Positions 925-24,345 of a stretch of DNA of 64,000 nt are shown here, in pieces (position 1 is the first letter of the stretch; every line of letters starts with the position of its first letter). The position numbers and the translations under genes were made by a program. Below the pieces are notes generated by a model. It was not told where the DNA came from. It worked only from the letters and a program-made list of their open reading frames with translations, and searched no databases. This DNA comes from Lachnospiraceae bacterium (GTDB lineage: Bacteria; Bacillota; Clostridia; Lachnospirales; Lachnospiraceae): contig JAFQLS010000008.1 in NCBI GenBank assembly GCA_017396555.1, forward strand, positions 1-64,000. Reading direction: 5' to 3'.

Positions 925-967
925 TAAAAATAAAAAAGGTCGCAACGAAAATAAATTCATTGCAACC
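925..967 (-). terminator. Riboswitch-controlled intrinsic terminator
   Basis: On the minus strand GGTTGCAATGAA (967-956) pairs with TTCGTTGCGACC (949-938), with two G-U wobbles, followed by a T run (937-925). The 5' arm overlaps the 3' edge of the c-di-GMP aptamer. Aptamer folding and terminator folding should therefore compete, which predicts read-through when ligand is bound (inference). Confidence 0.8.
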
Positions 968-1052
968 GAACTACCATAATAATATATGTACTACTTTAGG
1001 TTTCTAGCTTTGCGTCCCCACGTTTCCATTGAGTTTGCCCTCATAATTATTT
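961..1052 (-). promoter_or_regulatory. Cyclic di-GMP-I (GEMM-I) riboswitch
   Basis: Read on the minus strand, the conserved GEMM-I core is present in order: GGGCAAAC (1040-1033), a GGAAAC loop, GGGACGCAAAGC (to 1007), CCTAAA (1000-995), a variable P3 arm, GGTAG (975-971) and CGGTTGC at the 3' end. These match the c-di-GMP-I aptamer (Vc2 class), including the ACGCAAAGC segment and the A-rich loop. It starts just downstream of a strong promoter and runs into an intrinsic terminator in the leader of the gene at 1-882. Confidence 0.92.
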
Positions 1053-3015: not shown

Positions 3016-3054
3016 ATAGACTAGTAGAAAAAGTGACGTGAAAGGGTGACAGCT

Positions 3055-5889
3055 ATGCAGGTTAATTTAAATAATATTTTACCGGGAAATAAAGTAAATT
3101 CAATATATAGAAATGATGTACAGAAGGTGTCAGGAAGCTATTTTGATGCCTCTATTTCTGATGAGTATACTATCAAGAGTGCTAATACTATGCCTGATGA
3201 TGAGGTTATTACCAGAGTAAAGCAACAGGAGAAAGAGCCAATAGCACTTACGCAGGAAAATATTAAGACATTATCAGAGAACATTGGTGCAAATGAAATG
3301 TCAAAGTACGAGGAACTTGGAATCACACCGGAGCAGGATGAGCTTGGCAGAGTAGTAACTGTCGCAGAGAGAATTAAAATTCAGCTTGCAACTCATTGTG
3401 AAAATTATAAGGGAGACCTTTCTAATATCAGTGATGAACAGTTAAAGGAGATATACGGAGAAGCCGGAGTTCATATGGCAAAGCAGCAGATGCAGGCTAT
3501 GGAAATGGCTAAAGAGCTTAAGAATTTAGATGATAACTCAAAGACATATATTCTTAAAAATGAGATGACTCCATCCATTGAAAATGTATATATGGCAGAG
3601 CACAGTGGTAATGCAAGTAATGTAAATAAACTTACAGATGCACAGTGGCAGGAGTTAAAGCCACAAGTAGCTTCTACTGTAGAAAAGGTTGGGATTCAGG
3701 CTACAGAAGAGGTGATGAACGAGGGAAGATTCTTAATAGAGCATGGAATACCTCTTACAGCAGAAAATATTATGTCTTCGATGGAAATGAACGTAAATAT
3801 TGAGGGCAGAACTAATGAACAGTGGTTAAATGACATAGCAAAAACAATGACACTTGGAATGTCGCCTACAGATACACTTGTAACAGGAAATGTTCCGGAT
3901 ATGGCAATGGTAGAGGATATTATAACTGCTCTTGAAAATGGAAATGAGGAGCAGGTAAATGCAATACTTCAGTCGGGTAAGGAAGTAACCGTATTAAATC
4001 TTAAAAATCCACCTACATTAGAAGAAATTAAAGAGAAAATTGCAGATGAAAGATTACTTGCAGCAAGAGAGAAATTAGAAGAAATCCGTCAGAAAATGTC
4101 GTATGAATCATGTATCACAATGCTTAAACATGGCATAAAAGTAGAGATTACAACGATTGAAGTGCTTGCAGTTACTGTAGATGACTATAACAAAAATAAT
4201 GCAATGGTATTTATGCCGGATGCAGAGGATACAGCCTTAGATTTATTCAATGATACACTTAACGCAATGGAACAGATGAAGAGTGTTCCAAGTGCCGTAC
4301 TTGGCAGAGTATATGCTGGTCAGGTGGAATTCAGTATTGGAAGCATTGTAAGTGCAGATAGAAATTATACAGTAAAATATGCCGAAGCGGAGATGCTTTA
4401 TACAAGTGTCGGAACAGAGGTTAGAAGGGATTTAGGCGATTCTATAGGAAATGCATTTGCAAATTCATATGAAATGCTTAGTGAACTAGGAATTGAAATA
4501 ACAGAGAGTTCAAAAAGAGCTGTAAGAATATTAGGCTATAACGAGATGGAAATAACAGAGGAATCTATAGCCGCAATTCAGGGACTTGAGGAACAGGTAG
4601 GAAAATTATTTAGAAATCTTACACCACAGGCAACAGCATATTTAATTGAAAATGACATAAATCCATTAGAGACAGATATAGTAACCCTTAACGATAATCT
4701 GACAGAATTAAATATGGAGCTTGGATATGCAGGTACAGAAAGCTTTAGTAAATTCCTTTGGAAACTAGATAAGAATAATGGTATTTCGAAGGAAGACAGG
4801 GCTGCTTATATAGGACTTTACAAGCTTATCAACAGAATAGAAAAGGGTGACCATAAAGCGATAGGAAGAGTCCTTAAATCAGGTCAGGAAATGACACTTA
4901 AGAACCTTTACCATGCGATACAAAATGATTCCTACAAAGGAAAAGAATTTAATATAGATGATGATTTTGGCTTAACTGAAAGCATCACAATTGATGAAAA
5001 TAATTTGTCACAGCAGCTATCACATTTTGAAAAGAAATACAGTGGTATGACGGATAAGGTATGGCATTATACTTCACCGGCTAAAATGCAGGAAATAGGA
5101 CTTGAAAATTATCAGAATATGCCACTTGATGAGCTTGCAAAAGCACATGAGCAGGAGAACATCTCAGATGATTACTATCAGATGAAGTTATCAGAAATGC
5201 AAGAAGCAAGATATGTAACTGAGGAAAGTATTCAGATGCTTATGAATTCGGATTTAACTTTATCTGCTTCCAATATGCTTGCAATGAACACGCTTGTTAA
5301 CAGTTCGTTAGGCATTTGGGGAAAGCTTAGAGAAAATAATAAGGATATTGTGGATAAACTCGAAGAAATAGATATGGAAAATATCGAAGAAGAATATAAA
5401 GAAGCGATGGAATTTGCAGAAGAGACACTTGTCGACAATTCTAATGAAATGGATGTGCAGCAATTTAGAATGTTTAACAGAACCATTAGATTAATGGGTA
5501 CTCTTTCTAAAAAACAGTCATATTTTGTTCCTGTTGATATTCATGGTGAGTCATCGACAATGAAGGTAACATTTGTTAAGGATTCTGAAAATAAAGGACG
5601 AGTATCTATTGATATTTATTCGGAGAAAACAGGTAAAATTTCTGTGCAGTTTAAGGATGGAAGGGAAGGACTTAGTTGTAATGCATTTACAGAAAGTAAT
5701 GAGGGAATGGATGTTGCTTCTCGCGCTGTAAAACAAATGGAAGAAGAATTTGGAGAAATTAAGCTTGAGAAGGGAATTATCAAGAATATTAGAGGCGACA
5801 TATTTGCAAATGAGGAAAATGTAAGTGCATCAACAAAAAGATTGTATCATATAGCAAAATCCTTCTATGAATGTGTTAAGAATAATTAG
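3055..5889 (+). CDS. Flagellum-associated protein with FliK-like C-terminus (DUF6240-like)
   Basis: 944 aa, soluble, Glu/Met-rich and mostly helical. I prefer the ATG at 3055 over the GTG at 3046 because AAAGGG overlaps that GTG but has good spacing to the ATG. It has no signal peptide or membrane segment. Repeated helical units carry signatures such as ITEESIAAIQGLEEQ and LTAENIMSSMEMN. The last 120 residues (VPVDIHGESSTMKVTFVKDS ... ASRAVKQMEEEFG) resemble the C-terminal export-switch domain of the hook-length protein FliK. From memory it matches the uncharacterised DUF6240 family of Lachnospiraceae; this was not searched. It lies just before flagellin, behind a possible sigma-28 promoter, so a flagellar assembly or ruler role is likely but unproven. 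Confidence 0.65.
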   Translation: MQVNLNNILPGNKVNSIYRNDVQKVSGSYFDASISDEYTIKSANTMPDDEVITRVKQQEKEPIALTQENIKTLSENIGANEMSKYEELGITPEQDELGRVVTVAERIKIQLATHCENYKGDLSNISDEQLKEIYGEAGVHMAKQQMQAMEMAKELKNLDDNSKTYILKNEMTPSIENVYMAEHSGNASNVNKLTDAQWQELKPQVASTVEKVGIQATEEVMNEGRFLIEHGIPLTAENIMSSMEMNVNIEGRTNEQWLNDIAKTMTLGMSPTDTLVTGNVPDMAMVEDIITALENGNEEQVNAILQSGKEVTVLNLKNPPTLEEIKEKIADERLLAAREKLEEIRQKMSYESCITMLKHGIKVEITTIEVLAVTVDDYNKNNAMVFMPDAEDTALDLFNDTLNAMEQMKSVPSAVLGRVYAGQVEFSIGSIVSADRNYTVKYAEAEMLYTSVGTEVRRDLGDSIGNAFANSYEMLSELGIEITESSKRAVRILGYNEMEITEESIAAIQGLEEQVGKLFRNLTPQATAYLIENDINPLETDIVTLNDNLTELNMELGYAGTESFSKFLWKLDKNNGISKEDRAAYIGLYKLINRIEKGDHKAIGRVLKSGQEMTLKNLYHAIQNDSYKGKEFNIDDDFGLTESITIDENNLSQQLSHFEKKYSGMTDKVWHYTSPAKMQEIGLENYQNMPLDELAKAHEQENISDDYYQMKLSEMQEARYVTEESIQMLMNSDLTLSASNMLAMNTLVNSSLGIWGKLRENNKDIVDKLEEIDMENIEEEYKEAMEFAEETLVDNSNEMDVQQFRMFNRTIRLMGTLSKKQSYFVPVDIHGESSTMKVTFVKDSENKGRVSIDIYSEKTGKISVQFKDGREGLSCNAFTESNEGMDVASRAVKQMEEEFGEIKLEKGIIKNIRGDIFANEENVSASTKRLYHIAKSFYECVKNN

Positions 5890-5903
5890 ATTTGTTCCGA
5901 TAA
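5877..5903 (+). promoter_or_regulatory. Sigma-28 promoter of flagellin
   Basis: TAAGAATA, exactly 11 bases, TCCGATAA: the sigma-D/sigma-28 pattern TAAAGTTT-N11-GCCGATAA. It overlaps the end of the preceding gene (stop codon at 5887-5889) and lies 51 bases before the flagellin ATG. Confidence 0.85.
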
Positions 5904-5954
5904 CTATTACAGATAAAAAAGAGTGAGACATATAGCGGGAAAGGATTTGATTAC

Positions 5955-7040
5955 ATGAGAATAGGAACAAATATGTCAGCGATAGTTGCTTGCGGGCAGT
6001 TATCTGTAACAGAAAGAAATATAGCGACATCACTTGGAAGATTATCTTCTGGATATAAAATTAACAGTGCGAAAGACGATAGTGCAGGTATGGCAATATC
6101 TGAGAAGTTAAGAGCACAGATTAAGGGTCTTGATAGAGCAAGTATGAATGCGTCTGATGGTATTTCTGTTTCACAGTCTGCAGAAGGAGCATTAAACGAA
6201 GTTCATTCGATGCTTCAAAGAATGAGAGAGCTTGCGGTTCAGGGTGCTACAGATTCATATTGCGATGATGATAGAGAAAGCATACAGGAAGAAATCGAAG
6301 CTCTTCAGGAAGAAATTAATCGTATTTCAACAGACACAGATTTTAATGGAACAAAGTTATTGAATGGTGAGATGCAGAGAAGAACATATACGTTAGATGA
6401 TGAAGGAAAGCTTAATTCTGATTTAAGACTTTCGTATATCACCAATGATGTTCCGGTAGGTGAATACAGTCTTACAATGAATGCCGATGGAACAGTAGCG
6501 CTTGGTGCAGGATTTACAGGCTCAGCAATAATCAGCTATGACAATAACAAGGTAAATATAACAGATCATAACGGATTTAAAATGATGTTAGCATATGATG
6601 AGGAAAATATACCTTCAGGTGATTTTACATTAGAGGTATGGGATATAGGTACTATGGCTATCCAGCTGGGTGCTAATTCAGGTCAGGAAATGGCTATTTG
6701 TATTCCTGAGATAAGCAGTGAGAGTCTTAATGTTGATAAGCTTGATCTTACTACGTCAGAAGGATGTAGAAGTGCAATTACTAAGATTGACGAAGCAATT
6801 TCAAGAGTGTCATTAACAAGAGCACAGGTTGGTGCAGATCAGAACAGATTAGAATGTGCTATATCGAGCTTGGATGTAACATCAGAGAATATGTCATCTG
6901 CATTATCAAGTATACAGGATACGGATATGGCAGAAGAAATGTCTACATATACACAGTTAAATGTTATGCAGCAGGCAGGGATGTCAATGCTTGCACAGGC
7001 AAATCAGTTGCCTGAGAAGGTTCTTCAATTACTACAGTAA
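5955..7040 (+). CDS. Flagellin
   Basis: 361 aa. The N-terminal D0/D1 segment (residues 1 to about 140) has the diagnostic SLGRLSSGYKINSAKDDSAGMAI stretch and the VQGATDSY/INRISTDTDFNGTKLLNG helices. A short variable domain (about 150-255) is rich in Asn, Asp and Gly. The C-terminal D1/D0 segment (about 260-361) ends QQAGMSMLAQANQLPEKVLQLLQ, typical of the filament core. It is a mid-sized flagellin with an ordinary AAAGGA ribosome site and a sigma-28 promoter directly upstream. It is followed after 14 bases by a FliS-like gene. A flagellin lysine methylase gene (36856-37959) in the same window may modify it. Confidence 0.95.
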   Translation: MRIGTNMSAIVACGQLSVTERNIATSLGRLSSGYKINSAKDDSAGMAISEKLRAQIKGLDRASMNASDGISVSQSAEGALNEVHSMLQRMRELAVQGATDSYCDDDRESIQEEIEALQEEINRISTDTDFNGTKLLNGEMQRRTYTLDDEGKLNSDLRLSYITNDVPVGEYSLTMNADGTVALGAGFTGSAIISYDNNKVNITDHNGFKMMLAYDEENIPSGDFTLEVWDIGTMAIQLGANSGQEMAICIPEISSESLNVDKLDLTTSEGCRSAITKIDEAISRVSLTRAQVGADQNRLECAISSLDVTSENMSSALSSIQDTDMAEEMSTYTQLNVMQQAGMSMLAQANQLPEKVLQLLQ

Positions 7041-7054
7041 GGAGGATATGACTT

Positions 7055-7519
7055 ATGACTAAGGAAGAAATAAATGTTTTTTCGAAAAGAGTAGCTCAAA
7101 GCTCAAAAAGTGAATTGATTGTGATTTCATATGAAATAATTCTTAATTATATTGAATCAGCAAAAATAGAGCTTGCAAAAGAAAATACAGAAAAGTTTGT
7201 ATTTAATGTTAAGAAGGCAAAACAGTTTGTAAATGATTTATCCTCAGTATTAGATTTTTCACAGAAGATTTCCTTTGAACTTATGAATATATATATGTTC
7301 ATAGACAGATGTCTGATTAAAAGTATGGTAAAGAAAATGGATTGCGAGCTTGACCTTGTAGAAAGTATTATAGGTAAGCTTAAAGTGGCTTTCGAGGAAG
7401 TTAGTAAAAGTGATGATTCGGGAGCAATGATGAAAAACGGTGAGCATATTTATGCAGGTTTAACTTATGGTCGGGGAGTGCTTAATGAAGTGGCTATAAG
7501 AGGAAATACCTATGCTTAA
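7055..7519 (+). CDS. fliS: FliS-like flagellin export chaperone
   Basis: 154 aa, all helical. The pattern SELIVISYEIILNYIESAKIEL ... KKAKQFVNDLSSVLDF ... LMNIYMFIDRCLIKS follows the FliS four-helix layout (LI.LYDG...A...I..KA..II.EL...LD......L..LY.Y). The family binds the flagellin C-terminus in the cytoplasm and stops premature polymerisation. AAGGAGG precedes the ATG and only 14 bases separate it from flagellin, so the two are cotranscribed. It is longer at the C-terminus than classic FliS (about 130 aa) and divergent, so the name is by pattern plus context. Confidence 0.75.
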   Translation: MTKEEINVFSKRVAQSSKSELIVISYEIILNYIESAKIELAKENTEKFVFNVKKAKQFVNDLSSVLDFSQKISFELMNIYMFIDRCLIKSMVKKMDCELDLVESIIGKLKVAFEEVSKSDDSGAMMKNGEHIYAGLTYGRGVLNEVAIRGNTYA

Positions 7520-7532
7520 AAAAAAATGGTAC

Positions 7533-7560
7533 TAAAAGACTAGAGATTTTTTGTCGAATA
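7533..7560 (+). promoter_or_regulatory. Possible sigma-28-like promoter for second riboswitch
   Basis: TAAA (7533-7536), 16 bases, GTCGAATA (7553-7560). A sigma-A-like TATAAT at 7566-7571 has no convincing -35. Either could start the leader carrying the riboswitch; this is a weak call. Confidence 0.3.
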
Positions 7561-7589
7561 AGTTGTATAATAAGTTCAGATAATAAAAA

Positions 7590-7690
7590 GAGAATATTAC
7601 GATAATAGCAAAGCTGTTGAAAGGCAGTGACGCAAAGCTAAGGGTCTAACGTATAATATACTATGATAGCCGGTTACCGAAAATATTGTC
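7590..7690 (+). promoter_or_regulatory. Cyclic di-GMP-I (GEMM-I) riboswitch
   Basis: Conserved elements in order: outer helix AATATT (near 7593 and 7682), AGCAAAGC, GAAA loop, GTGACGCAAAGC (to 7638), GGGTCTAA, a variable arm, ATGATAGCCGGTTACCGA (to 7680). The GACGCAAAGCnnnGGnCTAA core and the GGTTACCG 3' element are typical of the c-di-GMP-I aptamer. A terminator follows 23 bases later, in the leader of the secreted glycosidase-like gene at 7852. Confidence 0.92.
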
Positions 7691-7712
7691 TGAATGACGA
7701 ATCGAATTGGAC

Positions 7713-7746
7713 CCTACACTTTTATAACAGAGTGTAGGTTTTTTTT
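7713..7746 (+). terminator. Intrinsic terminator downstream of riboswitch
   Basis: Perfect 8-bp stem CCTACACT/AGTGTAGG with a 10-base loop, then eight Ts. It lies between aptamer and coding region, so it is the probable expression platform. Unlike the first riboswitch the stem does not overlap the aptamer, so an intermediate antiterminator would be needed. Confidence 0.85.
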
Positions 7747-7851
7747 CTCTAAATCCTCCAATAAGATGGCAATATCTTCCAATAATCGGAAAGGTATTGC
7801 CTTTCTTGTTATTTGATATTCTCGGTATAATGAATGTATGGAGGCGGGAAT

Positions 7852-10653
7852 ATGATTAATTCTTCTAAAAAGAATTTGAAAAAAATAATAGCATTTATTT
7901 GTGTAGTTACTATTATATCTAGTAGTACATTTTCTAATGTATATATAACAGAGGCAGAGGGTGCATCTTTCTGGCAGTTTTTTGAAAGGATTTTTAACAA
8001 TAATAAGAAGCCGGAAAAGGAGACAACTACTCAGGAGGTAACTACTACAATTAAATTTACAGAAGAGGAAACAACAATTGTAGCTATACCGGAACAGACA
8101 ACAGAGCCGGAAGTAACAACACAGAAGGTTATTGAGGAGACAACTGAGAAGGTTATAGAAGAAACAACAGAAGAACAACATACAAAAGACAGCGTTAAGG
8201 TGACAGAAGAAGAGACAACAAAGTTGACAGAAGAGGAAACGACAGAAAAATCTACAGAAGAGGAGACTACAATAAGAGGTCTTACACCGGGAATTGCTAA
8301 CAAAAAAGAAATATCGACAGATAAGGTGGATTATAAGACCTCTTTAGTAGCTGACACAAGTAAACTTAAGTTTTATGTTGATGGAGATAATTATAGATTT
8401 GCAATTACCTCGTCAGGAAAAGAAGTTATTGCATTTAAGGATGCAGATGGAACATTTATTGATACTATTAAAGGTGCAGGGGAATATGTTATCAGAGATA
8501 AATCCTTCTGGGGTTACATTTCGTATCCAACTGCGATAAACGGATATAAGGAGACTATAGAAGATGGTGTTAAGACCGTAACCGTAAGCTATAATACTTC
8601 TAATGCTACAGCTACAAGTAGCACGACATATAAGTTTTATGATAATCATATAAATGTTGTTGCAAATATTGATAATGTTACTAACACGGCAGAGGTGGGA
8701 GATTCGTATTTCCAGAGGAGCTTTTATAATGATTTTATAGATTCAGAGCTTAGACAGAATCAGAAGTGGGTATTTCCGGAAGATGGAGATTTCCCTTATA
8801 ATGATTTTGAAAGCATTGTGATAACACATTATTTTGATTCAGAGCATAAATTATACACCTTTTACAGAGGAGAAAATGCTAACTCTTGTAAATATTTTGA
8901 TACCTATTCAAATGAGCATTTACCATTAATAGTTGAAGACAATAATCTTACAGAATATGAACTTACATATGATTTGGTATTTGAAAATCTCACAGATGAC
9001 AGAGACTCTGACTATCTTGCATTATTTGAGAGTACAGAAGAAGCAATGGCAGTTGGTATCACACCTGTAACTAAGAGTGTTGCTTCATCTACAATATTTA
9101 CAACCCCTAATGTGGAATTTAATATCAATCTTACGAATCTATTAGAGAGAGCAACAAAATACGATATTGAATATCGAATATATGATTACTATGGAAAGGT
9201 TTATAATGAAACAGAGGAAAAAGGAAGCGTAGAGGCCGATAGAGAAAAGAATTATTCAGTTTCAATGAAAAATATGAAGCAGGGTATATATTATCTTGAC
9301 CTTCTTGTTACTACGGAAACAGGTGAATATCATGAATTGTATCCATTTGGATATTTAAAGAATCACACTTACAGATATAATAAAACCAGTCCTTTTGGTA
9401 TTAGTGGTGTAAGATTTGGTGATTATCAGCAAAATGATACAACTATTGAGCTTATGGCTTTGCTTGGAATGGCAAATGCAAGAGTTGGTATTTCAAAGCC
9501 GGAATATGTAAATGAGACATATGACTTATTGGTAAATTGTTTATCAAGATTAAAGGAAAATGATGTAAATATTACAGGCCAGTACCTTCTTATGAATGAT
9601 TGGAGCTTTTCGACAGATGGAGAAGCATTTGCAGCAGAAATGGATACAGCACTTAGTTATGTATCAGAGTATCTTGATAATGTAGAAGTCGGCAATGAAA
9701 CCAATCTTTATCCGGTATATGATACGCTTGAGGAAGCAATGGAAAGGTATCTTGAATGTGAATACAGACCGGGATATAGTGTTGTTAAAGAAAAATATAA
9801 CCTTCCTATAATTGGTTCAGGTGTATATTTATGTAAAACTGACTGGTATATGCTTATGTATAAATCAGGATTGTATGATAATATGGATATATTATCGACT
9901 CATGCATATTCATTTCCTCATTCGCCTGATGCAACAGCAGATATGTCGATAAGTCATAGCTTTGAAAGCTGTCTTGCAAGAACCAGAGATTTACTTAATA
10001 ATGCAGGCGACAAAGAATGGCATTTAACCGAAATGGGATATCCAACAACACCAAACAACAAAAAAGATATGTTTAGTGGAGTTGACCTCAGAACACAGGC
10101 AGATTATACATTTAGGGAATTTATACTTGCTTTAAGTTATGGTGCAGATGTTGTTGATTCGTATGGTTTTTATGACCAGCAGAATATGCAGAAGGGTACT
10201 AATCCGGATGGGGCAGAATACCATTATGGAATGTTTTATGATCAGGATTATTATGGAAGAGTAATGCCTAAACCACTTGCCATAGCATATGGAAGTATGA
10301 CAAGAAAGCTTGAAAGTATTAAAGGATGTTATGGTATAGAAACATCATCAAAGACAATTAGAGCATTTCAGTTAGATTTGGAAGAGTCAGATACAAGTAC
10401 ATTTGTATTGTGGTCAAATTGTTCACCACTTACTAATAATGCAGTGGATGGATACAGAACAGTTAATCTTCCATGGAACAATCAGTGGGAAAAGACCGAA
10501 AATGTTGTATTATATGCTTCGTCTATAATTGAAGTAACAGATATAATGGGTAATGTAACATTATATACACCGGATGAAAAAGACGCCACAGTTACAATTC
10601 CTGTAAGTGGTTCTCCTATAATTGTAAGTGGAAGCTTACATGGAGAGAAATGA
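7852..10653 (+). CDS. Secreted clan GH-A-like glycosidase under riboswitch control
   Basis: The ATG at 7852 gives 933 aa. An in-frame ATG at 7834 overlaps the GGAGGCGGG ribosome site and is rejected. A signal peptide (KKNLKKIIAFICVVTIISSS) is followed by about 90 residues of E/T-rich linker (TEEETTKLTEEETTEKSTEEE), then a beta-rich region (about 160-470) and a TIM-barrel-like region (about 500-850). Two Glu occur in the right places and contexts for a retaining GH-A enzyme: Glu616 in VEVGNETN (acid/base NE) and Glu727 in WHLTEMGYPT (nucleophile). The last about 80 residues are beta-rich. I cannot name the GH family or substrate. The riboswitch suggests a matrix- or surface-linked role. It could be an inactive barrel. 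Confidence 0.7.
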   Translation: MINSSKKNLKKIIAFICVVTIISSSTFSNVYITEAEGASFWQFFERIFNNNKKPEKETTTQEVTTTIKFTEEETTIVAIPEQTTEPEVTTQKVIEETTEKVIEETTEEQHTKDSVKVTEEETTKLTEEETTEKSTEEETTIRGLTPGIANKKEISTDKVDYKTSLVADTSKLKFYVDGDNYRFAITSSGKEVIAFKDADGTFIDTIKGAGEYVIRDKSFWGYISYPTAINGYKETIEDGVKTVTVSYNTSNATATSSTTYKFYDNHINVVANIDNVTNTAEVGDSYFQRSFYNDFIDSELRQNQKWVFPEDGDFPYNDFESIVITHYFDSEHKLYTFYRGENANSCKYFDTYSNEHLPLIVEDNNLTEYELTYDLVFENLTDDRDSDYLALFESTEEAMAVGITPVTKSVASSTIFTTPNVEFNINLTNLLERATKYDIEYRIYDYYGKVYNETEEKGSVEADREKNYSVSMKNMKQGIYYLDLLVTTETGEYHELYPFGYLKNHTYRYNKTSPFGISGVRFGDYQQNDTTIELMALLGMANARVGISKPEYVNETYDLLVNCLSRLKENDVNITGQYLLMNDWSFSTDGEAFAAEMDTALSYVSEYLDNVEVGNETNLYPVYDTLEEAMERYLECEYRPGYSVVKEKYNLPIIGSGVYLCKTDWYMLMYKSGLYDNMDILSTHAYSFPHSPDATADMSISHSFESCLARTRDLLNNAGDKEWHLTEMGYPTTPNNKKDMFSGVDLRTQADYTFREFILALSYGADVVDSYGFYDQQNMQKGTNPDGAEYHYGMFYDQDYYGRVMPKPLAIAYGSMTRKLESIKGCYGIETSSKTIRAFQLDLEESDTSTFVLWSNCSPLTNNAVDGYRTVNLPWNNQWEKTENVVLYASSIIEVTDIMGNVTLYTPDEKDATVTIPVSGSPIIVSGSLHGEK

Positions 10654-10670
10654 ACAGAAGATAATAAGAT

Positions 10671-10711
10671 GACAGGCGTCCCACTCCTTTCATGTGTAGT
10701 GGACGTCTGTC
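10671..10711. terminator. Hairpin between convergent genes
   Basis: Long stem GACAGGCGTCCCACT/AGTGGACGTCTGTC between the stop at 10653 and the minus-strand stop at 10724. The T tracts on both sides are poor, so it may end transcription inefficiently or mainly protect 3' ends. Confidence 0.5.
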
Positions 10712-10723
10712 AATATTTGATAA

Positions 10724-11770
10724 TTATACTAGCAGTCGTGTGTATTTGTTGTCTAGTTTATAGAAAATGGTTCCGCTAATAAGTGATATAATGGTAATAA
10801 TAAAGAACAAAGGGGTGTTGCTAATATGTTTTCCTATAATTGAAGCCCCAAGTTCAATAATTGCAATAAATATTGGATGTACAAAATAAATGTAATTTGA
10901 CATTCGTTTACAATAGCCTGTATATTTTCCATATTGCGGATATGGATGTTTAAGCAGGAACACAAAGAAGAAAAACAGAGTAGGAAGTAGCATTATTGCT
11001 ACACAAATTTCTTCGGCGGCACTATCAAGAGGTGTAGTTAAAAAAGCACAAATCGTCTCTATTATATATCCCCCAAACCAAAATAAAAATAACACTGTCG
11101 ATTGCGATGGTGTTATTTTTTTGTACCAGTCCTCAGTAACATTTACAAAATATCCCATCATAAAAAAAGGAAGTCCCATACCAAGTATTCCTCTAATAAC
11201 TTCATATTTATTAACTTTATACAGATTATTTATAAGAGGAATATACTGTCCTAAGTTTATATAATCCGTACCGATAAAGAAAATAACATAAATTATTATA
11301 GAGGTATAAGCAAGTACTTTTATTCCTTTCATTTTACCGATTTTATAGCACAATGCAGCTAAAATAAAAGGATAAATAAGAGCAGGAAAATACCAAAGAT
11401 GGTAATAGCTTCCTTCAAAGAAAAAGTTAACAAATCTCTCTTTAAAAAAGTTTCCCATTGACTCGTTATTCTTAATGGCAAGAACCAGACTTAGAGAGTA
11501 GTATATAACTGTCCAGGCTATGTATGCTTTTAAAATATATTTGATTTGTTTGACAAAAGTATTTTTCCCATTTTTAAGACCATGGATATAAAAGTATCCG
11601 GTGGTACATAAAAAAAATGGAACACATATTCTTGGGAGAAATCTTGCCGCCCAAAAACCAGCTATGGGTGAGATATCTTTAAGAAAATAAGTATGCCCCA
11701 TAATAATCATAATGGCACAACATAGTCTGAATATATCAATAGATGAATTTCTTGTTTTTTTTTCGCTCAT
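10724..11770 (-). CDS. Acyltransferase family 3 membrane protein
   Basis: 348 aa with about ten hydrophobic segments. It opens with RNSSIDIFRLCCAIMIIMGHTYF, the acyltransferase-3 signature with catalytic His26, and has the VPFFLCTTGYF motif typical of sugar O-acetyltransferases (OatA/WcaO type). It would move an acyl group across the membrane onto an exported polysaccharide. It is the last gene of a six-gene minus-strand unit, 16 bases after the flippase gene, so it probably decorates that repeat unit. The substrate cannot be told from sequence. Confidence 0.85.
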   Translation of the reverse strand: MSEKKTRNSSIDIFRLCCAIMIIMGHTYFLKDISPIAGFWAARFLPRICVPFFLCTTGYFYIHGLKNGKNTFVKQIKYILKAYIAWTVIYYSLSLVLAIKNNESMGNFFKERFVNFFFEGSYYHLWYFPALIYPFILAALCYKIGKMKGIKVLAYTSIIIYVIFFIGTDYINLGQYIPLINNLYKVNKYEVIRGILGMGLPFFMMGYFVNVTEDWYKKITPSQSTVLFLFWFGGYIIETICAFLTTPLDSAAEEICVAIMLLPTLFFFFVFLLKHPYPQYGKYTGYCKRMSNYIYFVHPIFIAIIELGASIIGKHISNTPLFFIITIISLISGTIFYKLDNKYTRLLV

Positions 11771-11785
11771 ATCAAGATTCCCTTT

Positions 11786-13201
11786 CTAAAACATAATTGA
11801 TTTGGCAGATTTAATAGTATATTTAATATTTTTCCATTTAATTATAAGGTAAATACCAAATGCTACAATATAAAGTACAAGTCCCGGGTAACCGCCTATT
11901 ATCCAACTGCCGATAATGAATATGGCTGTCAGTAGAATTTCTAATAGGGTATCCTTATAGATGCTAATATTAATAAGCTTAGATATAAGAAGCTCGGCTA
12001 CAAAGCATTTGAATATCATCATAACAATAATTGCAGCAACTGCAACATCCATATTTTCAAAGACGTACACACTAATTCCTGTTGTAACAAGGCTAATAAA
12101 TACAGTTAAGATGTTAACTGTAAGAATAAGGTTTTCTTTTCTAAGGGTCTTCAAATATGTGTTGATAAGTAACTGGGTTCTACCTTCAAAAACACACATA
12201 GGAAGAAGGATAGCCAGATATTTAAGACTCTCTGCATATTGTGGAAGCCACATAGATAATAGTAATTTCATTGGCATATAGAACATCAAAATTGCGAGCG
12301 AAGGAACTCCTATAAAGGTTCTGATTACCATATATATCTGTGGCAGCTTTTCTTCACTTGTACGTCTAAGAGTAGGGAACAAAACTATTCCAATTGCTGA
12401 TATACATGTAATTAACATATTTGACATACTAAGGGTAAGAGAAACCTTACCAAATTGGATAGTTCCCCATTTATCTTCAATTGCAAATCGTACAATACCT
12501 ATTACAAGCTGGCTGGTTAGGTTGGCGCATAATAATTTGTAGCCACCTTTAATAAGGTCTTTAGCTTCGGTAAGGGTTTCCTGACAAGGAAGCATTTTTG
12601 AAAAGATAACCCTTCGGCAGTATAGCATACCTACAATAGCAGCGATAGTTCGTGCTACTACCTCTGAATAAATGAGAAATCGATAGTCATCAATATGAGC
12701 AATCCAGCATATTCCGACACCGGTAACGAACAACAGTCTTTCTGTTATTATAATAGTTGAATATTCGCGAATTCTGTTAGTAGCTTCCAAAATATACTGA
12801 AGCATATAGCGTAAAATATTTATTGTGGTTGAAATGAATGAAATAATAATAACAAATCTTTTATCAATTCCATCAATAAATAATATTAAAGCCCCGGCAA
12901 AAATTATGCTAAACAGTGTTTCGTATATTGCAAGATACCAAAATTGTGACGAAATCATTTTAGGATTTAATTTGTCATATTCTTTGCCGCCATATTTCAG
13001 ATAAAGACCATCACACCAGCCAAGAGAGGAGTACATAATGTAGGTTCCGTAGAACAGGTACAATTGCCAATAGCTGAATTCTTCCACTCCAAGTATTTTT
13101 GGCAGAAAAAGAGTCATAATTACTGAAATAAGCATTGTAATTACATTTGCCATAAATGCATATGAAAAATTTTTTATAAATGATTTAAATTTACTGTTCA
13201 T
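11786..13201 (-). CDS. Wzx-type polysaccharide flippase
   Basis: 471 aa with 12 or more hydrophobic segments. The N-terminus FSYAFMANVITMLISVIMTLFLPKILGVEEFSYWQLYLFYGTY is characteristic of the polysaccharide-exporter branch of the MOP flippases. It would turn lipid-linked repeat units to the outer face. It sits 18 bases after the EpsG/Wzy gene, as expected for a Wzx/Wzy pathway. Confidence 0.85.
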   Translation of the reverse strand: MNSKFKSFIKNFSYAFMANVITMLISVIMTLFLPKILGVEEFSYWQLYLFYGTYIMYSSLGWCDGLYLKYGGKEYDKLNPKMISSQFWYLAIYETLFSIIFAGALILFIDGIDKRFVIIISFISTTINILRYMLQYILEATNRIREYSTIIITERLLFVTGVGICWIAHIDDYRFLIYSEVVARTIAAIVGMLYCRRVIFSKMLPCQETLTEAKDLIKGGYKLLCANLTSQLVIGIVRFAIEDKWGTIQFGKVSLTLSMSNMLITCISAIGIVLFPTLRRTSEEKLPQIYMVIRTFIGVPSLAILMFYMPMKLLLSMWLPQYAESLKYLAILLPMCVFEGRTQLLINTYLKTLRKENLILTVNILTVFISLVTTGISVYVFENMDVAVAAIIVMMIFKCFVAELLISKLINISIYKDTLLEILLTAIFIIGSWIIGGYPGLVLYIVAFGIYLIIKWKNIKYTIKSAKSIMF

Positions 13202-13218
13202 ACAGCTTCCTTTCGATA

Positions 13219-14280
13219 TTATCTGCTAAATAAGGTCTGGTATGGAACGACATAGTACCAACCATTTACATAAACATCATAGAATAGTTTTATAAGATAA
13301 ACGGAAACAATTATCATATAGAGAACAATTCGTCTCGTCGGTTTTTTCTCGCTAAGGATTACTTCCGGTATTATTAATATTTCAACAAAGTTAAAGCAAT
13401 AATATACACGGTCACTCTGAGGAATTACTGATGAGAATAGGAGTGCAATTAAACCGATAAACTTCATATTAAGCATCAGATTATATCTCAAATCATTTTC
13501 TCTATGTCCATAGTAATAGTAAAAATAACAAAGTACAAGAGTACCCACGGCGAATAAAAATCCAAGGAGATAGAAGTTGTTTTCGTCGAAAATAGAGCCG
13601 AGATACCAGCTATATTTACTATTAGAGATAACTAAAATGATTATTTTCTTCAAAATAGGAAATCCCAAAAGACAACCAAAAAATGCATACAAATGATATT
13701 TTAGCTTAGCCTTAAACCCATACATAAAATATACAGGAATATAGAAAAGTGCAGAGGTATGCATAGTTAGCGCAAATGCTATCCATAAAAAATATGGAAG
13801 TTTTCTTCTCTGATATATGTATTTGGATGCATATAGGAATATAGACATAGCTATTGCCTGTCTAATCTGGTTCATTGAGTTAAAAAATATAGCACTAATG
13901 AAAAAAATAAGTATACTAAAACATATATGGTTTGATTGATCGTATATAGCTAAAAATACAAACACATATATTATAAGAGAAACTATTGCAAACATAACCG
14001 CCGGGTCGGCATAAACAAAGTAAGCAATGCGGTTAAGAATATTGAAGCCCTCTTCTGTAAATTTATCTGTACCTTCATTGATGTAATAGAAATACTTCTC
14101 GTAGATAAACCAATAGTCAGTACCTACGTTATATCTGATAGCAGATATTATAAAAAATGGGAGAAAAGAAGCAATACAGAATATCTTATAGGTAGTATGA
14201 AGTTTTGGTAAATGACGTATGTTTATTGCACATTTTGCCATTATCATTGAAATTATAGTAATAATAAAGTATACTGCCAT
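13219..14280 (-). CDS. EpsG-family polysaccharide polymerase (Wzy-like)
   Basis: 353 aa, about ten membrane segments. The motif AIRYNVGTDYWFIYEKYFYYI near residues 45-68 is the EpsG-family signature (RY.vGtDY..Y). EpsG proteins act as polymerases of exopolysaccharide repeat units. It lies between a GT4 gene and the Wzx flippase with gaps of 10 and 18 bases. Confidence 0.8.
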   Translation of the reverse strand: MAVYFIITIISMIMAKCAINIRHLPKLHTTYKIFCIASFLPFFIISAIRYNVGTDYWFIYEKYFYYINEGTDKFTEEGFNILNRIAYFVYADPAVMFAIVSLIIYVFVFLAIYDQSNHICFSILIFFISAIFFNSMNQIRQAIAMSIFLYASKYIYQRRKLPYFLWIAFALTMHTSALFYIPVYFMYGFKAKLKYHLYAFFGCLLGFPILKKIIILVISNSKYSWYLGSIFDENNFYLLGFLFAVGTLVLCYFYYYYGHRENDLRYNLMLNMKFIGLIALLFSSVIPQSDRVYYCFNFVEILIIPEVILSEKKPTRRIVLYMIIVSVYLIKLFYDVYVNGWYYVVPYQTLFSR

Positions 14281-14290
14281 ATTTACTCCT

Positions 14291-15406
14291 TTAACCTTTT
14301 ATTTGAGAAATGTACCATTTTTCCAGTTCCTTTGCAGCAGAATCTATTTCATATCCTGCATTTAGTATAGTAGACTTCATGCATATTCTTGGCTGATAGT
14401 TGTAGTTGTTTATATTTTCAGCCCATTCCCTTACGTTCATGGAAAGTGAATAAAACTCTACTAATTCGCTTACCTTGGCTTCGTGTGGAACTACATCCGA
14501 GCTAAAGCATGGAAGGGAGGCAGACTGTGCTTCTACCAGAACAATTCCGAGTCCTTCATAAATGGAAGGGAAAAGAAACGCATCCATAGCCTGATAATAT
14601 TTGTAAATATCATTTTTAACGCCTAAAAATTTTACACTATCATTTAACTTATAGTTATTTACCTTTGATTTAATTTCATTTTCTAATTCTCCGGTACCAA
14701 TGAGAATGAGAATAGAATCAGGTTTAAGCTTATGAAATTCGTTAAAAATGTCAATAAGCATCGTATGATTTTTTTGTTCGGTAAATCTTCCTACATGACC
14801 TATACAAAAGCGATTTCCGATATTTAGCTCAGTTCTTATGAGATTTCTTGTATCTTCATTATACAAAAAATTATTTATGTCAATTGCATTTTTTAATATA
14901 TAAACATTACCATTTTTAACATTTTTTTTGCCAAACAGGTATGTGCCGGCAGTTTCGCCACATGCAAAATATCTGTTGGCAAACATTTTATTTAATAGCT
15001 TTTTAATGCCTGCAACAGTCTTTGCGACAGGGTTAGAAGGAAATTCTACAAGGTGAGAATGAGCTATTCTAACCTTAATACCCGTAAGTGCTCCAAGGAA
15101 GGTATGATAAAAGCTATTAAGGTTCATGTGCGAATGAAGAATATCAAAATTGTTTTCTTTAAAGATTTTGATGGTTTGCTTCAAATTTCCCACAAAATCC
15201 TTCTTGCGTTCGGGTAAAACATGAATTATGAATCCCAGTTTTCTAAAACTGTCTTCACATTCTTTGACAGAAGGACTGTTAGAAATGATGTGAACCTCAA
15301 AGCTATCCATATTTATATGTGAAAAATAGTTATATATTACAGCCTCAACGCCTCCGCTGTGAAGACCGCCGACAATATGAGCTATTTTGATTTTTCTTTG
15401 TTCCAT
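14291..15406 (-). CDS. GT4 family glycosyltransferase (EpsF-like)
   Basis: 371 aa, GT-B fold. The N-terminal domain carries KIAHIVGGLHSGGVEAVIYNY and HSHMNLNSFY, as in EpsF-type enzymes. The C-terminal nucleotide-sugar domain has IGHVGRFTEQKNH and the E-x7-E motif in FPSIYEGLGIVLVEAQ. It is a cytoplasmic or membrane-associated retaining transferase acting on lipid-linked intermediates. It precedes the polymerase gene by 10 bases. Donor and linkage are not predictable. Confidence 0.85.
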   Translation of the reverse strand: MEQRKIKIAHIVGGLHSGGVEAVIYNYFSHINMDSFEVHIISNSPSVKECEDSFRKLGFIIHVLPERKKDFVGNLKQTIKIFKENNFDILHSHMNLNSFYHTFLGALTGIKVRIAHSHLVEFPSNPVAKTVAGIKKLLNKMFANRYFACGETAGTYLFGKKNVKNGNVYILKNAIDINNFLYNEDTRNLIRTELNIGNRFCIGHVGRFTEQKNHTMLIDIFNEFHKLKPDSILILIGTGELENEIKSKVNNYKLNDSVKFLGVKNDIYKYYQAMDAFLFPSIYEGLGIVLVEAQSASLPCFSSDVVPHEAKVSELVEFYSLSMNVREWAENINNYNYQPRICMKSTILNAGYEIDSAAKELEKWYISQIKG

Positions 15407-15412
15407 AGTGTG

Positions 15413-16387
15413 TTACTTCTTTCCTAAATGTTTAAGATTTTTCAATCTATAGAAGGTGTTAAATCCTGCATATGTCAACAACAGAGCAAGCCTTGTTCCA
15501 CGCCGTGCTTTCTTATCTAAAAGCACATCTTTTCTAATTGCTTTTATGTTATTTTCAATTCTCTTCCTATAGGGCTTATAATCTTTATTTCTTGGTATTT
15601 GAAGATAAATGTGAAAATTTGCCCTAACCTTTCTTGAATATATAGGTAGTCTTAATTCGGGATATCTTTTAAGCAGGTAATCCTGCATTTCATCTATAAC
15701 ATCTATCAAATCCATTTTTTTTGGCTTGAATTTTATTAGTGTGGTGCCGCTATTTCGTATTGTATAAAAGTAACCGGCATAGTCCGTATATGATATTATT
15801 TTGGCTCTTTCAAAAATTTTATAAATGATTGCAAGATCCTCATACAAATTGCCCTCTGGGAAAAATATCCCATCAAATAAACTTGATTTATAAAGCTTAA
15901 CCCACATAGCAGAATCAAATTCTACCTGATACATTAGAGCTTCCAGCCCGGAAAGTGTATCATATGTTTTGATATAGCTCTGTTGTAATGCTTTTGGTTC
16001 AGCATGTTCATATATATCAACCCATTTACAAATGGAGATATCAGCATTTTTATCAACCATAGCATTATATAATGTTTCGATATAAGTAGAATCTACAAAA
16101 TCATCACCATCTATAAATGTAAGAAGTTCGCCGTTTGTTTTGTTTAGTGCAACATTTCTTGCATGAGCTGCACCGCCGTTTTCTATATGAAATACAGTGA
16201 TTCTTGAATCTATAGTACTATATTTATCGCATAATGATGGTGAATTGTCTGTCGAACCATCATCTACAACAAGAATTTCAAGATTTTTATAGGTCTGTGA
16301 TAATACACTAATTAGACATCTCTCTATGTAATTTTCCAAATTATATACAGGTATAATAACGCTGATTAGTGGTTGGTTATTCATCAT
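15413..16387 (-). CDS. GT2 family glycosyltransferase
   Basis: 324 aa, GT-A fold. LISVIIPVYNLENYIERCLISVLSQTYKNLEILVVDDGSTDNS and TFIDGDDFVDSTY give the nucleotide-binding and DxD regions. It has no clear membrane segment and ends in a basic tail. Two adjacent ATGs are possible; the second (16384) has better spacing to AAGGAG. The start overlaps the end of the preceding gene by 11 bases, so translation is coupled. Confidence 0.85.
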   Translation of the reverse strand: MMNNQPLISVIIPVYNLENYIERCLISVLSQTYKNLEILVVDDGSTDNSPSLCDKYSTIDSRITVFHIENGGAAHARNVALNKTNGELLTFIDGDDFVDSTYIETLYNAMVDKNADISICKWVDIYEHAEPKALQQSYIKTYDTLSGLEALMYQVEFDSAMWVKLYKSSLFDGIFFPEGNLYEDLAIIYKIFERAKIISYTDYAGYFYTIRNSGTTLIKFKPKKMDLIDVIDEMQDYLLKRYPELRLPIYSRKVRANFHIYLQIPRNKDYKPYRKRIENNIKAIRKDVLLDKKARRGTRLALLLTYAGFNTFYRLKNLKHLGKK

Positions 16388-17465
16388 TTACTCCTTTATT
16401 TCTATAGAGTATGGCATATTTGCTACTCATAACTGATGTATTATATTCTTTTAGTATTTCGTTGTAAGCAGTAGAAACAATTTTCTCGATGTCATATTTG
16501 CCATTTATAATATTATTTATGATTGTGATATATTCCAGCGGTGTACTGGCGAAAAACCCATTTGCTCCATGTCGTATAACATCTTTGTTACCAATAACCG
16601 GACTTACGATTGCAGGTTTACCTGCATACATAGCTTCTAATAATGATATTGGAAGACCTTCCCATAATGATGGAAGCAGAAAAATATCAGCAGTATTTAA
16701 TTTTTCAATAGCTTCAGCTCTTGGTATCCAGCCGGTCACCGTTATATTTGGCGCGGTTATTGTATCACGCATCTCTCCGTCACCAATCCACATAAAATTA
16801 ATGTCTGGCAGATTTTTGGCAACTTGATTGAAGACCCAGGGATTCTTTTGGTAACATATTCTTCCAACTGTACATATTAGAGGTTTTTGAGTGTTGACCA
16901 TATTGGGCATTGGAGAATTTATATCAATATTAATCCCGTTATTTATGAAAAGAGCACGTTTTGATAATTTGAGTGCTATTTCATATTCACCCTTTGATAC
17001 AGCAATGGTTGTACAATGAGTCAATGCGGCAATTTTTTCTATGAAATAATATATCTTTCGTTTTAGCGGTGTATCATCTAATTTTAGAAATGCATAACCA
17101 TGAGGGGTGTAAAAAACAGTGTTCTTTTTACAATTTATTGCCATTCGACCTATAAATCCCGATTTTGATGAGTGTAAGTGTATAACGTCCGGTTTAACAT
17201 CTTTAACAATTTTTTTAATTTCAAAAAATGTTTTTATATCTTTAATCGGACTTAAACTTCTTACAAAATTCTTTCCTTCAATCAAATGGATTTTGGAATC
17301 GATTTGATTCTTATAATCCTTAGGCGTTTGAGGACGAAGAGCGTATGCAATTGTTGTATCGAATTCTTCACAGGTAGCGTTCATAAGTGGAACGAGAAAT
17401 GTGTATACTCCCCCGCCAAATGCTTCAACTATGTGGAGAACTTTTCTATGCTTGGTTTCGTTCAT
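16377..17465 (-). CDS. GT4 family glycosyltransferase (EpsD-like)
   Basis: 362 aa, GT-B fold. KVLHIVEAFGGGVYTFL, VIHLHSSKSGFIGRMA and FYTPHGYAFL mark the acceptor domain; TVGRICYQKNPWVF and the E-x7-E motif in LPSLWEGLPISLLEAM mark the donor domain. It resembles EpsD/CapM-like enzymes that add early sugars to the lipid carrier. It is the first gene of the 17465-10724 unit, with AAGGAAG as ribosome site. It is divergent from the metallophosphoesterase. Confidence 0.85.
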   Translation of the reverse strand: MNETKHRKVLHIVEAFGGGVYTFLVPLMNATCEEFDTTIAYALRPQTPKDYKNQIDSKIHLIEGKNFVRSLSPIKDIKTFFEIKKIVKDVKPDVIHLHSSKSGFIGRMAINCKKNTVFYTPHGYAFLKLDDTPLKRKIYYFIEKIAALTHCTTIAVSKGEYEIALKLSKRALFINNGINIDINSPMPNMVNTQKPLICTVGRICYQKNPWVFNQVAKNLPDINFMWIGDGEMRDTITAPNITVTGWIPRAEAIEKLNTADIFLLPSLWEGLPISLLEAMYAGKPAIVSPVIGNKDVIRHGANGFFASTPLEYITIINNIINGKYDIEKIVSTAYNEILKEYNTSVMSSKYAILYRNKGVNDE

Positions 17466-17539
17466 AATATTATACTTCCTTGAATGGTAAAAGTAATTGT
17501 GTTAATATATTTGTAAGATACCGGATTTCGGAGGTGCTT

Positions 17540-18358
17540 ATGAAATATATTAAGAAATTTAAGTGGTTTATAATAATTTTTATTTTATTATGTGTTTATA
17601 TAATTGTCGGATTCACAAGAACAGAGCTTGAGGTTACCGAGTATACTTATTCCAGTACTAAACTTCCAAAGGAGTTTGAAGGATATAAAATCGTGCATTT
17701 ATCTGACCTTCATCATAAAAATTTTGGAGAGAATCAATCAGAGCTTATTAAATGTATTAAGGCTCAGGAGCCGGATATAATTCTTTTGACCGGTGATATT
17801 GTGGATAAAAATCATACAGATATGTCACCTGTTGAGAACCTGTTTAAAGGAATAGAGGGAGTAGCTCCAATATATTATATAACAGGTAATCATGAGCTTG
17901 ATCCACAGGCTTCTGTACAATATGATAGGCTTTGTGCATTGATGGATAGTTATGGTATTATAGATATTGATGATGACTTTGTTGAGATAAAAAAGGGTAA
18001 TTCATCAATATTTATTCATGGTCAAAAGTTTCGTTCATATTATGTTACAGATTATCTTCCCGAAGCGGATAAGGGTGAATTTAATATCCTTATGTACCAT
18101 TGTAGTGATTATTTTGATTTAATCAGTGATTATGGTTATGACATAATTTTATCAGGTCATAGTCATGGTGGAATTGTACGTTTACCTTTTATTGGTGGAG
18201 TATTTGGTAATTCCGGAGATTATTTCCCTGATTATGCCGGTGGAGTATTTGAAAAAGATAACTGTACGTTGTTCTCAAATAGAGGATTAGGTGATGCCAG
18301 GGTTCCCAGGTTTTATAATCCACCGGAAATTATTAGCATCACCTTAAAGTGTCAATAA
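17540..18358 (+). CDS. Membrane-anchored metallophosphoesterase
   Basis: 272 aa from the ATG at 17540, chosen because GGAGG sits 5 bases upstream; an in-frame upstream start lacks such a site. One N-terminal membrane helix (residues about 8-27) is followed by a calcineurin-like domain with HLSDLHHKNF, LLTGDIVD, YITGNHE and LSGHSHGG, all metal ligands in order. It resembles the YkuE/YkoQ type, some of which act on wall or lipid substrates. It lies between two minus-strand polysaccharide units, and its stop codon abuts the opposite stop of the Wzz-like gene with no gap. Confidence 0.85.
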   Translation: MKYIKKFKWFIIIFILLCVYIIVGFTRTELEVTEYTYSSTKLPKEFEGYKIVHLSDLHHKNFGENQSELIKCIKAQEPDIILLTGDIVDKNHTDMSPVENLFKGIEGVAPIYYITGNHELDPQASVQYDRLCALMDSYGIIDIDDDFVEIKKGNSSIFIHGQKFRSYYVTDYLPEADKGEFNILMYHCSDYFDLISDYGYDIILSGHSHGGIVRLPFIGGVFGNSGDYFPDYAGGVFEKDNCTLFSNRGLGDARVPRFYNPPEIISITLKCQ

Positions 18359-19977: not shown

Positions 19978-19989
19978 TATCATATCCTC

Positions 19990-22939: not shown

Positions 22940-22967
22940 AATAAATGTCCTCCTTAAAATATTCACA

Positions 22968-24341: not shown

Positions 24342-24345
24342 TAAT

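Follow-up and report, generated by a model that had tools for sequence, protein, structure and literature searches.

A c-di-GMP-I-class riboswitch, predicted to be a transcriptional OFF switch, precedes the gene for a probably secreted clan A hydrolase in a Lachnospiraceae genome, and we propose that it controls this enzyme, which would trim or degrade the exopolysaccharide (EPS) of the neighbouring gene cluster. We hold this reading with somewhat more belief than doubt. The window analysed is a 64,000-nucleotide stretch of DNA from a 2.34-Mb assembly that is about 85% complete. Its relevant features, and those of comparable loci in other genomes, are listed in Table 1.

Table 1. Coordinates of features in the window and of GEMM-I-associated products at EPS loci of other genomes.
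Sequence	Feature	Position	Strand	Evidence or remark
Window	First GEMM-I aptamer, G20, ON type	958-1049	-	RF01051, 61.5 bits
Window	Flagellin gene and fliS, directly upstream of leader	5955-7519	+	Domain matches
Window	Perfect TATAAT, possible -10 element	7566-7571	+	Read by eye; good -35 absent
Window	c-di-GMP-I (GEMM-I) aptamer	7597-7681	+	RF01051, 75.4 bits
Window	Antiterminator strand 1, AGGGUCUAA, in 5' strand of aptamer P3	7641-7649	+	Predicted
Window	Antiterminator strand 2, UUGGACCCU, overlapping terminator 5' arm	7707-7715	+	Predicted
Window	Intrinsic terminator, 10-bp stem (7713-7738) and U8	7713-7746	+	Terminator scan
Window	Second strong hairpin, weaker U-tract	7760-7810	+	-22.2 kcal/mol; terminator-like site 7788-7806
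Window	GGAGG ribosome-binding site	7840-7844	+	Sequence
Window	Probably secreted GH clan A protein, 933 aa	7852-10653	+	Best start, after GGAGG
Window	E616 codon, predicted acid/base	9697-9699	+	Invariant in 12/12 aligned, and in 2 more covering the position
Window	E727 codon, predicted nucleophile	10030-10032	+	Invariant in 12/12 aligned, and in 3 more
Window	Strong hairpin between convergent enzyme gene and EPS cluster	10670-10712	.	-23.5 kcal/mol
Window	EPS biosynthesis cluster	10724-25191	-	Domain matches and gene reading
G009	858-aa PF12708 beta-helix protein			Convergent with glycosyltransferases and a gene read as pyruvyltransferase
G092, C1	918-aa GH5 protein			Within cluster of chain-length protein, kinase and glycosyltransferases
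G092, C204	702-aa GH5 protein			Adjoins one flippase gene; 4.4-kb contig
G096	LRR_5 protein			At EPS locus
G047	821-aa protein			Sub-threshold transglutaminase match; at EPS locus
G082, L221	Tandem GEMM-I before 1146-aa DUF4832/DUF4874 protein	5952-9389	-	EPS locus

Aptamer and leader architecture

The leader of the hydrolase gene matches RF01051 over the whole model (positions 1-87 of 87, E 5.4e-13) and far exceeds the gathering score of 35, which places the element in the family; it is also the highest scoring of eight RF01051 matches in the assembly. This covariance search, suggested in a preliminary description made from the sequence alone, bears out the second independent GEMM-I aptamer reported there. 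The terminator which that description placed after the aptamer is likewise present, as a hairpin with an 8-T tail. Two terminator-like sites fall within 7400-7900, where shuffled sequences lead one to expect 0.2, and three within 5800-11000 (1.7 expected). The fold of the leader (7590-7752) is more stable than that of shuffles (z -2.4), with an equally good fold in 5 of 200. The hairpin that follows the main terminator is a possible second terminator and recalls the dual terminators of Bc1.

Scans for sigma-70 promoters found none on the + strand upstream of the aptamer, and the TATAAT hexamer is no more than a possible -10 element of a promoter belonging to the leader itself. A candidate sigma-28 promoter 5' of the aptamer (TAAA-N16-GTCGAATAA) was dropped because such patterns are less frequent in the genome than their reversed controls (19 and 46, respectively; 10 and 20 in a second scan), and the site also deviates from the flagellin promoters of this genome. 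The scans gave no terminator-like site on the + strand from fliS to the aptamer, and transcription of the flagellin operon may therefore read through into the leader. Directly 5' of the flagellin gene is a gene for a 947-aa DUF6240 protein (3046-5889, + strand, E 3.1e-86).

Predicted antiterminator and direction of control

Folding of 7590-7746, also proposed in the preliminary description as a way to find an antiterminator, yields an explicit one: the two strands listed in Table 1 form nine contiguous pairs, and the resulting helix is incompatible with both aptamer P3 and the terminator arm. A separate terminator combined with an antiterminator that excludes both structures is the OFF-type arrangement of the Cd1 kind, and the leader has it at a level only moderately above chance. 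For transcripts that stop at 7722 or 7730 and start no earlier than 7578, the antiterminator ensemble lies 8-9 kcal/mol below the ensemble in which the Rfam P2 and P3 are enforced, and this advantage shrinks to about 5 kcal/mol when a 12-bp P1 is permitted, all energies being exclusive of tertiary and ligand contributions. Once the 3' arm of the terminator has emerged, the terminator fold is the most stable structure of the full-length RNA without ligand, and switching would thus depend on co-transcriptional trapping.

The evidence for the antiterminator is moderate. Helices of at least 9 bp arise in 133 of 5000 shuffles, and the duplex energy is matched by 211 of 5000 dinucleotide shuffles, by 79 of 5000 mononucleotide shuffles and, in natural sequence, by 5 of 392 windows. 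Among 45 separate-terminator loci placed by script, the duplex of this leader ranks sixth. An antiterminator position conserved across the family was considered and rejected, as the segment is used in 11 of these 45 loci, no more than in shuffles (0.29). Both ortholog loci described below lack the riboswitch.

Ligand that holds the aptamer together would leave the terminator free, and this modelling predicts an OFF switch. At low ligand concentration the nascent RNA would pair the P3 strand with the segment overlapping the terminator, removing the 5' arm of the latter so that the enzyme is made, and read-through from the flagellin-fliS operon possibly adds to its expression. At high ligand concentration the aptamer would be held, the antiterminator blocked and the terminator free to form, turning the enzyme off. 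Motile cells, in which c-di-GMP is low, would in this way use the enzyme to free themselves from their own matrix.

The seven other GEMM-I elements of the genome are built differently, the terminator 5' arm being the last 10 nt of the aptamer in every one. With the terminator constructed from the aptamer 3' end, ligand should prevent termination, as in an ON type, and the glycosidase leader is predicted to be regulated in the opposite direction to all seven. By eye, a -35 box reading TTGACA or TTGACG precedes six of the seven. Nine genes near six of the seven were compared with Pfam, the element at a contig end (L008) being left out, and eight had no match, the ninth matching LRR_5. The ON-type element within the window precedes an open ORF (1-882, - strand), which is truncated by the contig end and matches no Pfam family.

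Ligand specificity

The base at 7607 corresponds to specificity position G20 of Vc2, which is itself equivalent to G11 of Bc1 in the available passages of PMC11218506. It is A rather than G, as in GEMM-Ib aptamers. Passages of PMC6456294 report that an A20G change in a Geobacter GEMM-Ib riboswitch shifts selectivity from cGAMP to c-di-GMP, and further passages on cGAMP riboswitches are found in PMC6274999 and PMC8835794. Across 117 family aptamers from 46 genomes, base 20 is G in 99, A in 14 and unclear in four, and A20 and G20 aptamers coexist in the window genome. In the roughly 85% complete assembly, no Hypr serine (HxxGS) was observed among the 22 GGDEF matches; 14 have HxxGD and eight are off-motif, one of these being a fragment. 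From these sequences c-di-GMP appears the likelier ligand, with cGAMP or mixed sensing as alternatives.

A20 was considered as a rare mark of polysaccharide-linked switches (2 of 37 at first), and this idea was abandoned at 14 of 117, with varied downstream genes. One A20 GEMM-I element with an ON-type layout (L148, 257-3751, - strand) precedes a 1165-aa CBM_2 and subtilase protein.

The downstream enzyme

The gene encodes a protein with a signal-like N-terminus, a Thr/Glu-rich linker, a middle region and a C-terminal catalytic domain (about residues 501-930); the ORF list offers an alternative start at 7834, giving 939 aa. A basic stretch followed by a hydrophobic one at the N-terminus suggests that the protein is probably secreted, in agreement with the secreted 933-aa product that the preliminary description placed after the terminator.

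Clan A enzymes carry, in order, an Arg, an Asn-Glu pair with the acid/base, a His-x-Tyr and the Glu nucleophile. The equivalent residues R544, N615-E616, H684, Y686 and E727 occur in this order and are kept in all 12 aligned sequences, which places the protein in the clan. The alignment consists of three orthologs and nine relatives. A search of 391 genomes of the class with the ortholog alignment gave matches in 13 (G000 included) and 16 rows from other genomes, of which nine were used. Four rows (L029, L030, L034 and L035) were omitted as lying outside the catalytic pair, and three (L021, L024 and L031) were initially omitted because the ORF or motif script did not show both motifs or because they were overlooked. 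In a later alignment L024 and L031 keep both glutamates, and the L021 fragment keeps the nucleophile.

No glycosidase match was obtained for the protein itself in Pfam, NCBIfam or a PDB sequence search, and the three orthologs alone retrieved neither a PDB chain at E<=10 nor a Pfam GH family. GH39 (PF01229) gave no match at E<=5 to the window protein and its two orthologs; two relatives score 22.7 and 25.7 bits against its cut-off of 26. Of five relatives compared with Pfam, two match GH5 or Glyco_hydro_cc above the cut-off, one below it and two not at all, and four contain CBM9 domains; the window protein itself gave no match to a carbohydrate-binding module. Aligned with hhalign, the three orthologs match the nine relatives with a probability of 99.7 (E 5e-27), and both glutamates are aligned. 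The profile of the nine relatives alone retrieves PDB 5jvk (4e-58), PslG (3.9e-20) and GH39 xylosidases, and that of all 12 sequences retrieves PslG at 1.6e-23. Since the orthologs alone match nothing in the PDB, the link to PslG runs through the relatives. We class the enzyme as a divergent hydrolase of clan A that lies near GH39/PslG but outside GH39 itself. The GH-A catalytic pair noticed beforehand is thereby identified, by alignment and by profile comparison, as E616 and E727. The label "exo-glycosidase" given to it finds no support, the nearest characterised EPS enzyme by profile being PslG.

Linkage to an exopolysaccharide cluster

Seventy bases past the enzyme gene, on the opposite strand, begins an EPS biosynthesis cluster that includes genes for an acyltransferase, a flippase-like membrane protein (named by eye, with no family match), EpsG, three glycosyltransferases, a chain-length-like protein with a sub-threshold TIGR01006 match, a tyrosine autokinase, a Cna_B protein and an initiating sugar transferase. 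The hairpin between these convergent units is a possible bidirectional terminator. RF01051 found no riboswitch on the EPS operon itself. A calcineurin-like phosphoesterase gene (PF00149, 17480-18358, + strand) is located inside the cluster on the opposite strand; homologs with 37-42% identity sit in EPS loci of G009, G092 and G047, and the phosphoesterase may belong to these clusters.

A scan of the genome collection yielded two orthologs, from Lachnospiraceae bacterium RM5 (L009, 54% identity) and from a goat-colon MAG (L010, 41%). At both loci the enzyme gene is convergent with the same EPS cluster, separated from it by two intervening genes in L009 and one in L010. Identities in L009 and L010, respectively, are 68% and 51% for the flippase-like protein, 61% and 43% for EpsG, 63% and 44% for GT1a, and 45% and 36% for the acyltransferase. 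The other flank of the enzyme gene differs between loci. Linkage to an EPS cluster, a PslG-like trait, is thus present at all three loci, and enzyme and cluster form a linked unit, which makes EPS the likeliest substrate; by this inference from gene order the enzyme probably acts on the EPS of its neighbouring cluster. Among 397 family genomes searched for further orthologs only the window's own was found; likewise, the genus-level search returned only its own genome and the class search only distant relatives.

Conservation of the riboswitch with the enzyme was rejected, as neither ortholog locus nor ortholog genome gave an RF01051 match; the same model does match in the window genome, and the ortholog-genome search itself included no matching control genome. 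Both ortholog genomes are without an above-threshold flagellin, a single weak match occurring in G777, and they have 12 and 22 GGDEF matches above the cut-off. The joint absence of riboswitch and flagellin is a correlation only, drawn from three genomes.

Recurrence at EPS loci across the family

RF01051 matches are present in 46 of 120 family genomes, the window genome included, with filters that lose weak matches. Flanks around the matches covered 1.5 kb for 29 relatives and up to about 7 kb for 80. When 30 downstream proteins were compared with Pfam, three were GH5 or pectate-lyase-like (L066, L138 and L217) and one was DUF4832, from which it follows that sugar enzymes are a minority of GEMM-I targets. 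The remainder mostly have CAP, LRR, SH3, solute-binding or other surface-type domains, or none. Eight regions (L114 and L217-L223) were extended, chosen for a large secreted-looking product or an EPS marker rather than at random. EPS genes occur in six of the eight, from other genera, with two GH5 proteins, a beta-helix protein, a DUF4832 protein and two other proteins as products; the marker comparison found no EPS markers in L222 and L223. The initiating transferase near the tandem GEMM-I of G082 is 49% identical to that of the window.

Counting the window, the products encoded under GEMM-I elements at EPS loci comprise four enzymes resembling glycosidases or lyases and one DUF4832 protein; the G096 and G047 products are not clearly sugar enzymes. 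A clan-A-like motif (TTEMGY) in the G096 protein was discarded because it sits near the N-terminus of an LRR_5 protein. A counter-case is L181 (G050), which has EPS genes downstream, but whose first ORF is of 178 aa. Enrichment of GEMM-I at EPS loci is suggested rather than shown by these chosen regions. By eye, the hairpins are separate in the window, L063, L066, L068 and L138; L144 has the appearance of an ON type, and L143 is without a hairpin. Two further observations were made in these regions: the second tandem aptamer of L221 abuts an AGGAGA ribosome-binding-like site, and the EPS locus of G047 also encodes a GH5 protein (L220, 3490-5442, + strand, E 1.5e-56) that is not itself behind the riboswitch.

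We put forward tentatively, granting it a little less than an even chance, that GEMM-I in Lachnospiraceae gates a recurrent cassette, namely a large and interchangeable secreted enzyme that acts on polysaccharides (GH39/PslG-like, GH5, beta-helix or DUF4832) and is encoded within an EPS locus or at its border. Each strain would thus have its own-matrix cutter under direct dinucleotide control, OFF here in contrast to the seven ON elements. The riboswitch family itself is known; novelty lies in the kind of target and in its repeated occurrence at EPS loci. Among the matches listed from the open-licence literature (titles and abstract starts), we recognised no c-di-GMP riboswitch controlling an EPS hydrolase, no account of the recurrence at EPS loci, and no report on c-di-GMP riboswitches in Lachnospiraceae.

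Alternative explanations and significance

GH39- and GH5-like clan A enzymes commonly act on plant polymers, and CBM9 domains accompany most of the scanned relatives, so a plant or host polysaccharide might be the substrate and adjacency to the EPS cluster incidental. Such a substrate is nevertheless distinctly improbable given that the link to the same EPS genes persists at 41-54% protein identity, that the pattern recurs at other EPS loci, and that the search of the window protein gave no carbohydrate-binding module. The same switch and enzyme might instead take part in making or maturing EPS, a role proposed for PslG, or in remodelling the matrix, rather than in dispersal. This would suit the conserved EPS-cluster linkage and the two genomes in which the gene occurs with neither a riboswitch nor an above-threshold flagellin, and passages of PMC9075953 describe PslG as affecting Psl production and as a proposed helper in its release. 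A helper of synthesis ought, however, to be switched on along with EPS when c-di-GMP is high, a state in which the riboswitch is predicted to be OFF, and the enzyme gene is on the opposite strand, outside the EPS operon; we consider a synthesis role unlikely, if the most credible of the alternatives to dispersal under an OFF switch.

The riboswitch might also be ON, or the leader might be a mere terminator after flagellin-fliS with little response to ligand. The only + strand terminator-like sites between fliS and the enzyme gene are indeed in the leader, the antiterminator is just moderately above chance, and Bc1, according to passages of PMC11218506, binds c-di-GMP yet hardly regulates. Against this, the ON layout of the other seven elements is absent from the window leader, and the rank of this aptamer as the best scoring of the genome suggests selection; we place this possibility second among the alternatives and likewise think it unlikely. 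Least probable of all is an aptamer that senses 3',3'-cGAMP or both dinucleotides, to which the A at 7607, the selectivity swap in Geobacter (PMC6456294, in part) and the other A20 aptamers of the family would lend themselves. It is opposed by the failure to see a Hypr serine among the GGDEF matches, in a scan of the incomplete assembly confined to GGDEF synthases, and by A20 and G20 aptamers side by side in one genome.

The preferred reading thus remains an OFF riboswitch over an enzyme directed at the strain's own EPS. The coupling of c-di-GMP to glycan remodelling envisaged in the preliminary description survives as a plausible link, shorn of its exo label and with cGAMP as a less likely alternative ligand. 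Its interpretation is supported in part, and it did not include the OFF polarity, the conserved EPS linkage or the A at the ligand-specificity position. If the reading is true, an EPS-cutting enzyme under a direct riboswitch would be the glycan counterpart of the C. difficile adhesin-releasing protease; a single signal would lower adhesion and start matrix breakdown, with no protein regulator needed, and matrix release would become easier to approach in anaerobes that are difficult to manipulate. Enzyme/polysaccharide pairs could also be sought from sequence, by way of GEMM-I elements at EPS loci.

Comparison with known systems

A close parallel in architecture is Cd1 (Cdi-1-3) of the C. difficile flgB operon, an OFF switch whose antiterminator, in the passages available from PMC9262584, disrupts the aptamer and is itself only transiently stable. 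Both leaders have a GEMM-I aptamer, a separate terminator and an aptamer-breaking antiterminator, and the motile-state gene that Cd1 turns on at low c-di-GMP has the same sense as that predicted here. The antiterminator uses the P3 5' strand in the window and the aptamer-stabilising strand A in Cd1, and the window differs further in its A at position 20, its glycosidase target and a direction that is predicted only. Bc1 of B. thuringiensis, by comparison, has terminators and binds c-di-GMP, yet hardly regulates in vivo (passages of PMC11218506). Geobacter GEMM-Ib cGAMP riboswitches share the A at position 20 (PMC6456294, in part); unlike them, the window aptamer has a separate-terminator layout, and no Hypr GGDEF signature was seen in its genome.

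PslG of Pseudomonas aeruginosa resembles the window enzyme in belonging to clan A, in being encoded with an EPS cluster and in having two catalytic glutamates. As described in passages of PMC9075953, its key residues are E165 and E276, and it is co-transcribed with the psl genes and found mainly at the inner membrane, with some in the periplasm. The window enzyme is instead a larger protein from a separate convergent gene that is predicted to be riboswitch-controlled.

A parallel in function is again found in C. difficile, where flagella, pili and adhesins are under c-di-GMP riboswitch control, as is an adhesin-releasing protease, PPEP-1; the protease has a class I OFF switch and its targets have class II ON switches (passages of PMC6366702 and PMC11477304). 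The pair of PPEP-1 (ZmpI) and CD2831 is similar to the arrangement proposed here in that a secreted releasing enzyme is under a class I OFF switch and surface targets are regulated oppositely. The C. difficile enzyme is a protease acting on protein adhesins; that of the window is a glycosidase with EPS as its likely target, and the ON-type elements of its genome are of class I and sit on other genes.
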